Assembly: GCA_009692925.1 (NCBI GenBank)
Contig: SHYG01000014.1
Span: 1-38,841, forward strand
Direction: 5' to 3'
Length of the DNA stretch: 38,841 nt
From: Dehalococcoidia bacterium
GTDB lineage: Bacteria; Chloroflexota; Dehalococcoidia; Lucifugimonadales; UBA3495
Made by a program: the position numbers and the translations under genes. Position 1 is the first letter of the stretch. Every line of letters begins with the position of its first letter. This document shows, one piece after another, positions 28,988 to 33,350 of the stretch. The notes below the pieces were generated by a model, which was not told the DNA's origin, searched no databases, and saw only the letters and a program-made list of their open reading frames with translations.

Positions 28988-31036
28988 TTACCCGGTCAGC
29001 TGCTTCACCAGCTCCGCGGGCTCGGTGACGGGAAGCTGGCAGGTGTAGTTCTGGCAGACGTAGGCCGCGGGCTTGCCGCCCACCAGATCCCGCCCGGCTA
29101 GCAGAGGCAGGTTGGTCCCGGCGGCGGCCTGGCCGTCGGCGGCGCCGGTCACCACTTTGTTGGGCAGGTAGCTGCCGAAGATCACGTCCAGCAGGGTAAG
29201 GGTGGCCGGGTCGTCCCGCGAACCGATGACCGCCACCTCCTTGGGGGCGCCGGCGTAGAAGTCCAGCGCCGCCAGCCAGTGGCCTACTCCCGCCGGCGCG
29301 CGGCCCATCAGTTCGTTCAGGGCTCGCATCGGTGCGGCGCCCTTGCGGGCATACTCCTGGTTGCCGGTGACTACCGCCAGCCGCAGCAGCAGGTCGGAAG
29401 CCACCGAGCCGCCGCAGGGCTGGGCGTTGTCAAAGATGTCCCGGGGGCGGATGACCAGCGCCTCGTGATCCGAGCCGGTATCATAGAACCCGCCGATGCC
29501 TTCATCCCAGAACAGCTCGATCATGGAGTCAGCCAGGGAGACTGCTTCCTGTAGCCAGCGGAGTTCGAAAGTCGCTTCATACAGGGCCAGCAGGCCGTCG
29601 GCCACGAAGGAGTAGTCCTCCAGGTAGCCCAGCAGATGGGCCTGGCCCTGACGCCAAGTACGCAGCAACCGCCCCTGGCTTCGCAGATTGTCCAGCAGGA
29701 AGGCGGCGTTGCGCCGGGCGACCTCCAAATACTCAGGGCGCTTCAGGCAGGCCCCGGCCTCCGCAAAGCTCCGCAGCATCATTCCGTTCCACGAGGCCAG
29801 CACCTTGTCGTCCCGCAGCGGATGCACCCGCTGTTCCCGCACGAGGCGCAGGGTCTCCTTGCCCCGTCTAATCAGGTCCAGCAGGCCGTCCAAGTCCAGG
29901 CCGTGCTCCTTGGCAAAGTTAATGGGCCTCTGGGGCATGTGCAGGATGGTCTGCCCCTCAAAGTTGCCAGCCTCGGTCAGGCCAAAGAAGCCGCCCAGGA
30001 GATCGCCGTCTTTGTCGCCCAAGGCGGCGCGGAACTGGCCGGGAGTCCAGATGAAGAACTTGCCTTCCTCCCCCTCGCTGTCGGCGTCCTGGGCCGAGTA
30101 GAACCCGCCTGCCGGGTCGGTCATCTCCCGCTGCACATAGGTCAGGATCTCCTGGGCGATGCGCTGGTACAGGGGCCGCCGGGCAACCTGGTAGGCGTGA
30201 AGATACAATCGGGACAGCAGCGCGTTGTCGTAGAGCATCTTCTCAAAGTGGGGCACCAGCCAGAAGGCGTCGGTGGAGTAGCGATGGAACCCCCCGGCAA
30301 TCTGGTCGTACATGCCGCCGTAGGCCATCTTGTCCAGAGTCAGCTCCACCATGTCCCAGGCCCGGGGGCTGTAGCCGTGGTGGTGGTAGCGCAGCAGGAA
30401 CTCCAGGGTCATGGGCTGCGGAAACTTGGGCGCGGCGCCAAAGCCGCCGTTCTGGTAGTCGAAGCTGGTGGCCAGGCTGGCGTAGGCCCGGTGCAGCACG
30501 TCAGCGGTCAGGGGCGTAGTCCCTTTGGAAAGCTGCCCGGAGCGGCCAAGTTGGGCGGACAACTGCTGGGTGACCCGGAGAACCTCCCCTCGGTTGCTCT
30601 GGTAGGTCTTGGACATGGCCATGAGCAGGCGGGGAAAGCTGGGCATGTTGGGGTGATCCACCGGTGGGAAGTAGGTGCCGCCGTAGAAGGGACGTCCGTC
30701 GGGGGTGAGGAACACCGTCATGGGCCAGCCGCCGCCGCCGGTGAGCATCTGCACCGCTTCCATGTACACCGCATCCAGGTCCGGGCGCTCCTCCCGGTCC
30801 ACCTTGATGCTTACGAAGAACTCGTTCATCAGCGCCGCGGTGGCGGAATCCTCAAAGGACTCCCGCTCCATCACGTGGCACCAGTGGCAGGCGGAGTAGC
30901 CGATGCTCAGCAGGATGGGCTTGTCCTCCTGCTGAGCCCGCTCCAGGGCCTCCGGCCCCCAGGGATACCAATCCACCGGATTGTGGGCGTGCTGCAACAG
31001 GTAGGGACTGGTCTCGTTAATCAGGCGATTGGGCAT
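28988..31036 (-). CDS. Thioredoxin-domain protein, YyaL/SPATA20 (DUF255) family
   Basis: A 682-residue protein. The N-terminal thioredoxin-like DUF255 domain opens with [20 protein letters not shown] and has the CHWCH motif with Cys50 and Cys53 ([16 protein letters not shown]), then [10 protein letters not shown] and [20 protein letters not shown] with GTYFPP. The remainder is an alpha/alpha-barrel resembling glycan-processing folds. The family's reaction is not established. The ATG at 31036 has AGGAG 6-7 nt upstream; the longer upstream frame is unlikely. It is divergent from the selenoprotein redoxin gene, 156 nt away. Confidence 0.9.
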
Positions 31037-31192
31037 GATGGCTCCTGGCATCGCGGGCTTAGGCCAGCGTATAGTACCGCTGGGACAGTATACATCCTTT
31101 ACATGCCTGGCCCACGTAGTAATTGATGCAGCCCCGCCGCAGACTGGGACTGCGGCTGGACTGGGCGTAACTCGGCGCATGGGGGCACAGAT

Positions 31193-31993
31193 ATGATACA
31201 CATACCCGTGGTTAAGGCATTCCTGGCGGCCAGGCTGGGCCTGCTGGGCCTAACCCTGGCTGGACTGGCCCTGGCGTGCGGGCCAAGCGCGGCGCCGGAG
31301 TCTTTCGGCGGGGTCGCTACCGCCATTCCCGCCGCGACAGGCATTCCCGTAGTAACTGCAATGCCTTTGGCTACTGCGGCGCCCGACGCCACAGCCATCC
31401 CCGCAGCCACTGCAATGCCTTTCGCCACCGGTATTCCCGCCGCCACCGCCGTGCCTGCCGCGACCCGCATTCCCGCCGCCACCGCCATGCCCGCCACTAC
31501 CGCCGTGCCTGCGGCGCGCTTGCCCTCGGTGGGCACGCAGGCGGGCGCGCTGGTCCACCCCTTCACCATCAAGCTGGCCGGCGGCGCTCAAGTAACCTCC
31601 CAGGAGCTGCTGGTACAGCACCGGCCCACCTTTCTGTTTTTCTTTGCCTCCTGGTGACCCACCTGCCGCGCTGAGTTGCAGCGCCTGAAGAGCATCTACC
31701 CCGAGTACTCCGACAGGGTGGCGTTCTACGCCGTTGGCTCCGACCCCACAGAAGGCATTGCGACGCTGGAATCCTACCGGCAGAGGCAGGGATATCCCTG
31801 GCCGGTGGCGGAGGCCGTGGGCACTAGCTTGCAGGACTTGCAGGTGCAGACCCAGTCCACCAAGATCGCCTTTGACGCTCAAGGGGTAATCATCTACCGC
31901 GACGGCTACGGCCAAGGCAGCGAAGCCAGCTGGCGCAAGGTGTTCCAGGACCTGGCGGTGTCGGCAAAACCGGCGGGCGGAGCGGGCTACTAG
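31193..31993 (+). CDS. Selenocysteine-containing TlpA-like redoxin lipoprotein (UGA at 31655-31657 read as Sec)
   Basis: Read through its TGA, this is a 266-residue exported redoxin. A hydrophobic signal ends at a lipobox-like LALAC (Cys29), so it is a likely lipoprotein. Residues about 40-112 are a degenerate A-x-P-x-A-T repeat linker. The redoxin domain has FLFFFASW, then TGA, then P-T-C-R-A-E-L. TGA occupies exactly the first Cys of a WCPxC redox motif, giving Sec155-Pro-Thr-Cys158. The frame continues 111 codons with a normal thioredoxin-like pattern ([33 protein letters not shown]). Ser222 stands where cis-Pro is usual. A hairpin follows the TGA at the right distance. Conventional gene calling would split it at 31657. 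Confidence 0.8.
31655..31684 (+). promoter_or_regulatory. Candidate bacterial SECIS element
   Basis: After the TGA (31655-31657), GCGCTG (31668-31673) pairs perfectly with CAGCGC (31679-31684) around the loop AGTTG. The loop begins 17 nt after the TGA and has G as its second base followed by T, fitting the described bacterial SECIS rules (short stem, a G in the first two loop bases, 16-37 nt from UGA). Confidence 0.65.
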
Positions 31994-32020
31994 GGAGGGG
32001 ATGGGCGCCCAGCCCAGAGC

Positions 32021-32069
32021 AGACACGTAGGTCTGCCCCTACGTGGGGCGAGGCGGCCGTCTCCCCCTT
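32021..32069. repeat. Direct repeat, copy 1
   Basis: AGACACGTAGGTCTGCCCCT, ACGTGGGG, CGAGGCGGCC, CTCCCCCTT. The second copy at 32156-32205 differs by about two substitutions and one extra base; the period is about 135 nt. Confidence 0.85.
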
Positions 32070-32101
32070 GGCAAGATTCCTGACGCCAGTGATTTGTCCC
32101 C

Positions 32102-32128
32102 GTAGGGGCGCACCCGTGTGTGCGCCCC
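32102..32128. repeat. GTAGGGGCG-family palindrome
   Basis: GGGGCGCAC (32105-32113) is complementary to GTGCGCCCC (32120-32128), with a 6-nt loop. Confidence 0.75.
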
Positions 32129-32155
32129 GGTCCCAAACACCGCGGCGCCTAGGGC

Positions 32156-32205
32156 AGACACATAGGTCTGCCCCTACGTGGGGACGAGGCGGCCTTCTCC
32201 CCCTT
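32156..32205. repeat. Direct repeat, copy 2
   Basis: Second copy of the unit at 32021-32069. Its right end runs into the CCCCCTTCATAAGGGGG hairpin that also occurs, inverted, at 28109-28144. Confidence 0.85.
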
Positions 32206-32237
32206 CATAAGGGGGAGATACAGAGAGGGTCGTCCGC

Positions 32238-32285
32238 CCGCAGCGGTGTAGGGGCGACGCATGCGTCGCCCCTACACCGCTGCGG
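32238..32285. repeat. Perfect 48-nt palindrome
   Basis: Both 24-nt arms are exact complements with no loop. The centre is GACGCATGCGTC and the flanks are GTAGGGG and CCCCTAC. It is the largest member here of the GTAGGGGCG/CGCCCCTAC family. Confidence 0.9.
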
Positions 32286-32363
32286 CACACCCGTGGCGGC
32301 CGCCTGTGGTAAACTCGTAGTGCGAACTGTCCCAAAAGTCTGTAATGGTGGTAATGCGCGAGT

Positions 32364-33350
32364 ATGGCCCAACCTAAGGTGGTGTTCTTCACCAATCTCC
32401 CGCCAGATCTGCGCCAGCAGGTGGTGGACCGCGCCCTGCCCGGCATGAACGTCGTGGCCGCCGCGGCCAACCTGCCCGACGACGAAAAGATCAAGCTGGT
32501 GCGGGATGCGGACTTCATCATGCTCTTCCCAGGCCGCCTCTCCGACCGGGTGTTGCAGGCCGCCAAGCAGTGCAAGCTGATCCAGCTGCTCAGCGCCGGA
32601 TACGACGAGATGAACTTGCGCCTGGCCGGCGACCTGGGCATTCCGGTGGCCAACAACGGCGGCGCCAACCGCGTGGCGGTGGCCGAACACACCATGATGC
32701 TCATCCTCTCCTGCTACCGGCGCTTGATGTACTACGCCACCAACGTGCGGGCAGGCCGGTGGAAGCCGGAGCAGGACCGCAAGATTGACGTGTTTGAGCT
32801 GGAGGGCAAGACCCTGGGCATTATCGGCATGGGCAACATCGGCCAGCAGGTGGCCAAGCGGGCCAGGGCTTTTGACGTGAACCTCCAGTACTACGACAAG
32901 TTCCACCCGCTGCCGCCTACCCAAGAGGAGGCGTTGGGTCTGCAAGCTGTGACTCTGGAGGACCTGCTGCGCACCTCCGACGTGGTGACCTGCCACGTGC
33001 CCCTGACGCGGGAGACTCGCGGCATGATCGGCGCCAGGGAGCTGGCGATGATGAAGCCTACCGCCGTCATCGTCAACACCAGCCGGGGCGGCGTGATTAA
33101 CGAGGCGGCGCTGGCGGAGGCGCTACGCAAGGGCGTCATCGCCGCCGCCGGGCTGGACGTGATGGAGCATGAGCCGCCGGACCCCAGCGACCCGCTGCTG
33201 AAGCTGGAAAACGCCATCATCACGCCCCATACTGCCGGGCCAACCCTGGAGTCCATCCCCAAGCGCGCCGACAACTCCTTCGCCAACATCCAGCGAGTGT
33301 GGCAGGGCGAGCCGCCCCAGTGGACTCCCGAGTACGAAAACCCGGAGTAA
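32364..33350 (+). CDS. D-2-hydroxyacid dehydrogenase, NAD-dependent
   Basis: Enzymes of this family reduce 2-keto acids or oxidise D-2-hydroxy acids. The 328-residue product has the nucleotide motif GIIGMGNIGQQVAKRA at about residue 153. The catalytic triad is Arg241 (NTSRGGVIN), Glu270 (DVMEHEPP) and His289 (TPHTAGPT). Substrate-binding loops include LLSAGYDEMNL and NNGGANRVAVAEH. Substrate (glycerate, phosphoglycerate, glyoxylate, lactate) cannot be told from sequence. There is no C-terminal ACT domain, so it is not a long-type phosphoglycerate dehydrogenase. The start is ATG 32364; the upstream region is repeats and has only a weak ribosome binding site. Confidence 0.9.
   Translation: MAQPKVVFFTNLPPDLRQQVVDRALPGMNVVAAAANLPDDEKIKLVRDADFIMLFPGRLSDRVLQAAKQCKLIQLLSAGYDEMNLRLAGDLGIPVANNGGANRVAVAEHTMMLILSCYRRLMYYATNVRAGRWKPEQDRKIDVFELEGKTLGIIGMGNIGQQVAKRARAFDVNLQYYDKFHPLPPTQEEALGLQAVTLEDLLRTSDVVTCHVPLTRETRGMIGARELAMMKPTAVIVNTSRGGVINEAALAEALRKGVIAAAGLDVMEHEPPDPSDPLLKLENAIITPHTAGPTLESIPKRADNSFANIQRVWQGEPPQWTPEYENPE

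Follow-up and report, generated by a model that had tools for sequence, protein, structure and literature searches.

A probable selenocysteine redoxin with a UPTC active site, predicted to be a lipoprotein, in an apparently SAR202-like bacterium

Selenoproteins of the redoxin type are already on record. In a 2026 review that distinguishes 119 selenoprotein families or subfamilies, Table 1 has a Prx-like thiol:disulfide oxidoreductase, of domain PF00578 and with UxxC/UxxU, beside a Redoxin family protein of domain PF08534, with UxxC (PMC13188914); Prx-like 1, Prx-like 3 and UxxC are named in the text of a marine metagenome survey (PMC2398784), such selenoprotein classes are listed in a 2022 review (PMC9312934), and deep-sea Chloroflexi with selenocysteine (Sec) formate dehydrogenases are in print (PMC5736913). 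A word search of the main text of PMC13188914, PMC9312934 and PMC2398784 returned neither “chloroflex” nor “lipoprotein”, and “SAR202”, searched for in PMC2398784 alone, did not occur there; the words sought were equally absent from PMC12013277, a paper on selenoprotein prediction. Judging by titles and the opening of abstracts, the open-access papers listed on selenoproteins or selenium of Chloroflexi or SAR202 include none on a redoxin of the kind described here.

The gene lies in a stretch of DNA of 38,841 nucleotides, the whole of which is called the window below. A preliminary description, made from the sequence alone, had placed an in-frame TGA between FFFASW and PTCRAEL, with 111 further codons of normal redoxin sequence behind it, and had proposed a Sec redoxin missed by ordinary gene calling. 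The sequence confirms the placement: in the 266-codon frame running from ATG 31193 to 31993 (+), TGA 31655-31657 is the sole interruption, and 111 codons separate it from TAG 31991-31993. The redoxin sequence is confirmed by Pfam, where the read-through protein, scanned with Cys substituted for Sec, matched AhpC-TSA over residues 122-207 (1.6e-9) and Redoxin over residues 117-236 (1.5e-8), residue 155 lying inside both matches; in the ResA/TlpA-like domain, the TGA takes the place of the first redox residue. That ordinary gene calling would miss the gene is plausible: the mechanical ORF list gives it as one piece of 154 aa (31193-31657) and another of 105 aa (31676-31993), and no NCBIfam model reached its cut-off for any of the three proteins scanned. 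Genes of this type thus risk being cut in two in annotation, as the ORF list does in the window. Rfam, at gathering scores, gave zero matches within the window. On comparative evidence, we put at roughly 93% the probability that this TGA inserts selenocysteine and that the gene encodes a selenoprotein; its features are collected in Table 1.

Table 1. Predicted features of the redoxin gene, in window coordinates.
Feature	Positions	Strand	Basis
Predicted selenoprotein gene (266 residues, Sec at 155, stop TAG)	31193..31993	+	Frame, domain matches, homologues
Signal sequence ending LALA-C, Cys29 being the predicted lipid attachment site	31193..31279	+	Sequence by eye; relatives' rows
Ala/Pro/Thr-rich repeat linker, residues 30-112	31280..31528	+	Repeat periods and low pLDDT
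Redoxin domain (ResA/TlpA-like thioredoxin fold), residues 113-257	31529..31963	+	Pfam, model, structure matches, alignment
UGA codon read as selenocysteine (probable Sec155)	31655..31657	+	Sequence, column in relatives, Sec machinery of the genome
Putative resolving Cys158 (U-P-T-C)	31664..31666	+	Cys in 114/114 sites read
Probable SECIS hairpin, stem 31668-31673 / 31679-31684, loop AGUUG 31674-31678	31668..31684	+	Limits, covariation, codon choice, TGA versus Cys sites
Glu161	31673..31675	+	Six residues past Sec, compare ResA Glu80 after Cys74; E in 93/104 Sec rows
Ser222, position of the ResA/CcmG cis-Pro	31856..31858	+	Alignments and column counts

The Sec column was followed through 118 genomes, the window's own and 117 from the same family or order; matches were found in 111 of them, and by eye 95 of the 98 matches listed at E <= 1e-17 held at least one TGA and three held none. 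A profile was used to read the column from 117 loci, for matches within E 1e-10 (whole) and 1e-8 (domain) and leaving out weaker or unlisted ones; removing repeats of the same 80-base context reduced 162 matches to 114 distinct sites. TGA occupies the column in 105 of these, Cys in 8 and TGG in 1, counts that are not an unbiased rate as the sites were chosen largely among TGA-bearing matches. Homologues aligned across the UGA, a check that the preliminary description had named, thus carry TGA or Cys at 113 of 114 sites, and the second Cys is invariable. A TGA copy is present in 69 of the 118 genomes, among the sites read; two of the eight Cys sites (L188 and L192) belong to generic CxxC proteins. 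The 19 relatives aligned with the window sequence (alignment A1) show 41-52% identity with it over the part spanning the site, and in the relatives read conserved redoxin sequence continues past the site; decay beyond it was looked for and did not appear. The column bears the mark of a bacterial selenoprotein, a UGA within the frame that lines up with Cys or Sec codons of homologues.

Several individual copies deserve mention. The L075 copy near 3.1 kb has TGG at the Sec position and keeps the hairpin, and its near-identical counterpart in L076 has TGA; the TGG may be either a fresh mutation or an assembly error. L187 (G068:C9:16200-18000, TGA near 708-749 on the minus strand) encodes an AhpC-type protein at a greater distance, whose TGA lies in FWUPFC and whose hairpin is a different one; it is probably another selenoprotein, and it is counted among the 105 although it does not fit the hairpin. 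Adjacent redoxin copies occur in several relatives (L133, L134, L136, L137 and others), with three in a row in G027; the window's genome has one Sec redoxin copy plus one generic CxxC relative.

A 6-bp hairpin with a G/U-containing loop had also been noted at SECIS distance, and it holds up as GCGCTG-AGTTG-CAGCGC (31668-31684), with a loop that begins 16 nt past the TGA. The limits for bacterial SECIS elements given in the legend to Figure 2 of PMC13188914 are a loop of 3-9 nt, a stem of 4-16 bp, a G in the first two loop positions, a spacing of 16-37 nt and an MFE <= -7.5; the window hairpin falls within all of them (loop 5, stem 6, A-G-U-U-G, spacing 16, which is the lower limit, and MFE -10.1). 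Taken alone, its stability does not stand out from that of synonymous shuffles (z from -0.20 to -1.56 by stretch length), so that the case rests on comparison across relatives. There, the mean z was -0.96 for the 105 TGA sites, against 0.02 for the nine others and -0.10 for the stretch 45 nt further on. In the covariation alignment (A2, 72 of 100 distinct 42-mers listed), 89.1% of cells were paired against 71.7% in shuffles, 70 cells were double-changed against 20.0, and the covariation score was 0.460 against 0.164, none of 500 shuffles being as high on any of these three measures; both-side changes occurred in all six pairs, a measure which, for itself, was equalled by 14 of the 500. Sliding the partner by 1-3 columns left 28-55% paired and scores of 0.05-0.13, and three of the six slid versions kept five pairs with such changes. 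RNAalifold, given 101 distinct 42-mers, returned the upper three pairs only and no covariation bonus, a shortfall probably caused by the one-base bulge present in 33 of the 105 sites.

The upper three pairs of the hairpin are formed in 103 of 105 TGA sites and in none of the eight Cys sites; with these formed, the lower three follow straight on in 58 sites, lie past a one-base bulge in 33 and are reduced to two of three in 12. Energy fails to separate the two groups, since the limit of -7.5 kcal/mol is reached by 102 of 105 TGA sites and also by four of the eight Cys sites. The second pair from the loop is C-G in 86 sites, T-A in 18 and T-G in one. GTT is the loop sequence at 101 of the 105 sites, regardless of whether it lies across Glu-Leu, Ala-Leu, Ser-Leu or Glu-Phe; its Leu codon is TTR in 96 of 97 cases, against 19 of 130 Leu codons downstream, and GAG serves for Glu at the hairpin in all 94 cases, compared with 70 of 125 Glu codons downstream. 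At L151, which has Cys, the AGTTG loop is retained without a stem. A first hairpin scan had put a G within the first two loop positions of the best hairpin in only 75 of the 105 sites. Searched against the genome of the window, a SECIS model found this gene at 2.3e-9 and one chance-level match at E 4.96 (150 of 1441 first-look candidates scored), the search being blind to selenoproteins with other hairpins, of which selD is one. The 105 sites make up a natural data set on what SelB needs of its SECIS, in which the pull of the protein and that of the RNA are separable.

The machinery for Sec insertion, which the preliminary description would have looked for in the same genome, is there. In this assembly (2,065,070 bases, 101 contigs, 91% complete), tRNA-Sec scored 66 bits against a cut-off of 47, SelA 555 bits, SelD 399 bits and SelB 309 bits, above its cut-off and with the C-terminal part in the same frame; selA, selB, selC and selD are thus all represented. 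Fourteen control genomes passed the cut-offs five times for tRNA-Sec, twice for SelB, once for SelA and twice for SelD. As five of 14 controls exceed it, the tRNA-Sec cut-off alone is not strict, and the anticodon is the better proof: ARAGORN calls the same gene tRNA-Sec with anticodon TCA. The selD gene (L049:1501-2424, minus strand) itself has an in-frame TGA, in HCAGUAAK, which we take to encode the catalytic residue of SelD, and is thereby a selenoprotein gene too. Six of the 23 main ORFs of the window, picked by hand, terminate at TGA, so TGA also serves as an ordinary stop.

How far does the gene spread? A search of 84,980 species genomes gave 376 stretches coding for a relative; one of its two patterns required Cys codons, which left the other alone to pick up Sec sites. 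Among the best 80 of the 376, 27 bear SAR202, Dehalococcoidia or Chloroflexi/Chloroflexota in their titles, all with E 2e-32 or better, and the other 53, at E 5e-13 or worse and 27-34% identity, belong to other phyla by title; we infer from the titles of its relatives that the host is SAR202-like. A sample of 350 genomes of the phylum gave scores above 150 bits only for the window's own genome and two of other classes, all three with TGA, and the next best, at 90.5 bits, was without TGA. The two, G285:C9:4329-4865 and G173:C301:17218-17631 (182 and 157 bits), are close TGA-bearing members in other classes of the phylum that were perhaps acquired by transfer.

Within the order, a strong tRNA-Sec accompanies 62 of the 69 genomes with a Sec copy and 34 of the 49 without, among those read (p = 0.008, with a limit of 57 bits chosen after the scores were known and the genomes below it listed by hand); this is a weak test, because nearly the whole order has tRNA-Sec. 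In seven of the 69 genomes that hold a TGA copy, a tRNA-Sec of at least 57 bits is missing; six of these are 75-88% complete and the seventh, G092, is 95%. G080 and G091 yielded copies with Cys, among those read, and are both without a strong tRNA-Sec; G072 combines a Cys copy with a strong tRNA-Sec. A tree of 113 rows needs five changes between Sec and non-Sec, three of them forced by well-supported branches, one forced-change group being the generic CxxC pair and 28 of the 110 inner branches being open. The pattern fits repeated loss of Sec, on a tree whose root is not known.

The preliminary description had further proposed a lipoprotein tethered by a repeat linker. The linker is borne out: its repeats, within 31314-31509, have periods of 18, 36 and 54 bp, and the blocks covering residues 1-100 of the structure model have pLDDT 41-67. 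The anchor fits the sequence as read by eye. The N-terminus is hydrophobic and runs into LALAC ahead of the Ala/Pro/Thr repeats; a Cys after small or hydrophobic residues is present in all 11 rows of a 30-row alignment that reach that far, and a longer hydrophobic stretch is visible in six of those 11. The protein is probably anchored as a lipoprotein.

Behind the linker, the model (Cys for Sec, 20-row alignment) is confident, no block of residues 111-260 having a pLDDT below 93; its pTM is only 0.61 because of the linker. Foldseek placed ResA at ranks 1-4 for this predicted fold (4nmu, 2h19; TM-score by target 0.82-0.88), and ResA, TlpA and CcmG types lead the best 50 of 705 matches at E <= 0.001, none of which is named a peroxiredoxin. 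Sec155, Cys158 and Glu161 have the spacing of ResA Cys74, Cys77 and Glu80 (ResA numbers from entry titles), and the modelled domain has the thioredoxin fold of the ResA/TlpA/CcmG subgroup, with its active-site pair and the ResA-type Glu. It departs from that subgroup at one position, set by alignment to P144 of E. coli CcmG (entry 2g0f is P144A) and to the ResA Pro, which we take to be the cis-Pro facing the active site. Pro occurs there in none of the 103 Sec rows with a letter, which have Ser (84), Met (10), Ala (8) or Thr (1); 104 Sec rows were counted, against 105 TGA sites, the rows being keyed by fragment name. The nine non-Sec rows have Ser (6), Asp (1) or Pro (2), and both Pro rows are generic CxxC proteins, one of them (L192) from the window's own genome. 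The absent cis-Pro suggests that the substrate or partner differs from those of ordinary ResA or CcmG.

The gene's surroundings are ordinary. ORFs were clustered around the gene in the window and at 27 named loci, and the 16 largest clusters, those listed, gave no conserved operon and no clue to a substrate. Pfam scans of 10 neighbour proteins and 10 window proteins (two of the latter without a family) gave a short-chain dehydrogenase, an ABM monooxygenase, a class-III aminotransferase, a second redoxin-domain protein (L063), a UvrD helicase, a luciferase-like monooxygenase, G6PD, an ABC transporter, an FKBP and a 2-hydroxyacid dehydrogenase. This last is the only neighbour common to the window, L075 and L076 among the clusters listed, bar the gene itself and antisense ORFs. 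In the window, the divergent neighbour (28988-31201, minus strand) encodes a DUF255/Thioredox_DsbH protein, so that another thioredoxin-fold gene adjoins the redoxin. The intergenic stretch 31993-32365 is repetitive: direct repeats of 37 nt begin at 32012 and 32147 and agree to 92%, and 32238-32285 form a perfect palindrome of 48 nt.

Another account of the TGA is that the gene is now broken, its Cys codon having mutated to a stop, or that the sequence is in error: a single base change separates TGC or TGT from TGA, and eight of the 114 sites do have Cys. The same TGA at 105 distinct sites from 69 genomes, in a set whose 19 aligned members have 41-52% identity with the window across the site, and a hairpin that covaries leave this account hardly any credit, and we rejected it on the shared TGA and the covarying hairpin. 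A genome-wide reassignment of UGA to Trp or Gly, which the TGG of L075 could be taken to favour, is just as improbable; it was rejected in view of the ORFs of the window (6/23 picked, in the window only) that end in TGA, of Cys, not Trp, at eight of the nine non-TGA sites, and of the tRNA-Sec, SelA, SelB and SelD found in the genome. Sec insertion competes with termination in known systems, and the gene might accordingly be used for two products, the full Sec protein at plentiful selenium and, upon termination, a 154-residue lipoprotein tail devoid of the redox centre; the sequence offers no use for the short form, whose linker part aligns poorly among relatives, and we hold this very unlikely. 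The preliminary description's reading, a Sec redoxin, is supported: of the three findings that it named as refuting, a genome without sel genes, decay past the site and a column lacking Cys or Sec, none turned up.

What the Sec protein does is less settled. An extracytoplasmic thiol-disulfide reductase role stands at about even odds, by analogy with the subgroup whose fold it has; the genome encodes a DsbD_TM (CcdA type) protein (44 bits, over the cut-off), as do 10 of the 14 control genomes. The main alternative leaves Sec in place and makes the protein a peroxidase of the peroxiredoxin kind: AhpC-TSA is its best Pfam model and the ResA-type cis-Pro is absent. Against this stand the leading Foldseek matches, ResA, TlpA and CcmG with no peroxiredoxin among the best 50 of 705, and a UxxC pair accompanied by the Glu of ResA, and we judge a peroxidase rather unlikely.

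With Sec at residue 155, the following sequence of events may be proposed. SelB with Sec-tRNA would bind the hairpin just past the UGA for Sec to be inserted; the N-terminal signal, as predicted from its residues, would direct export and lipidation on Cys29, and the flexible Ala/Pro/Thr linker would hold the domain outside the membrane. By homology, Sec155 may attack a disulfide or peroxide and Cys158 resolve the selenenyl-sulfide, with Glu161 at the place of ResA Glu80; electrons could come via the CcdA-type protein of the genome. More broadly, and somewhat short of even odds, we tentatively see here a Sec-preferring extracytoplasmic redoxin family of one SAR202-like order, often in tandem, with a near-invariant SECIS loop, no cis-Pro and a substrate that ResA and TlpA do not use. 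SAR202 bacteria are abundant in the deep ocean. If the proposal is true, selenium would be needed for surface redox chemistry in these bacteria. The SAR202-like order gains a widespread predicted selenoprotein outside the cell membrane (69/118 genomes); what merits further work is the absence of the cis-proline and the set of SECIS elements across the order.

Compared with known systems, the gene is, as far as its sequence tells, a new member of the known UxxC class, in a lineage for which we found no description of one; its predicted lipoprotein anchor and its lack of a cis-proline set it apart. It shares with the published Prx-like and Redoxin UxxC selenoproteins their Pfam domains (PF00578/PF08534) and the UxxC motif, here UPTC; the likeness is drawn from descriptions alone, and SAR202-like proteins may already be among those classes. 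Etrx1 and Etrx2 of Streptococcus pneumoniae (4hqs, 4hqz, 2yp6) have the same fold and are exposed lipoproteins by entry title; they differ in their active site, which has Cys and reads WCGPC for 4hqz in the alignment. ResA of Bacillus and CcmG/DsbE/TlpA are alike in fold, in the place of the CxxC pair and in the Glu six residues after its first member, whereas the protein described here would have Sec for the first Cys, has Ser, Met, Ala or Thr across its family for the cis-Pro, and carries its domain on a long Ala/Pro/Thr linker behind a predicted lipobox.
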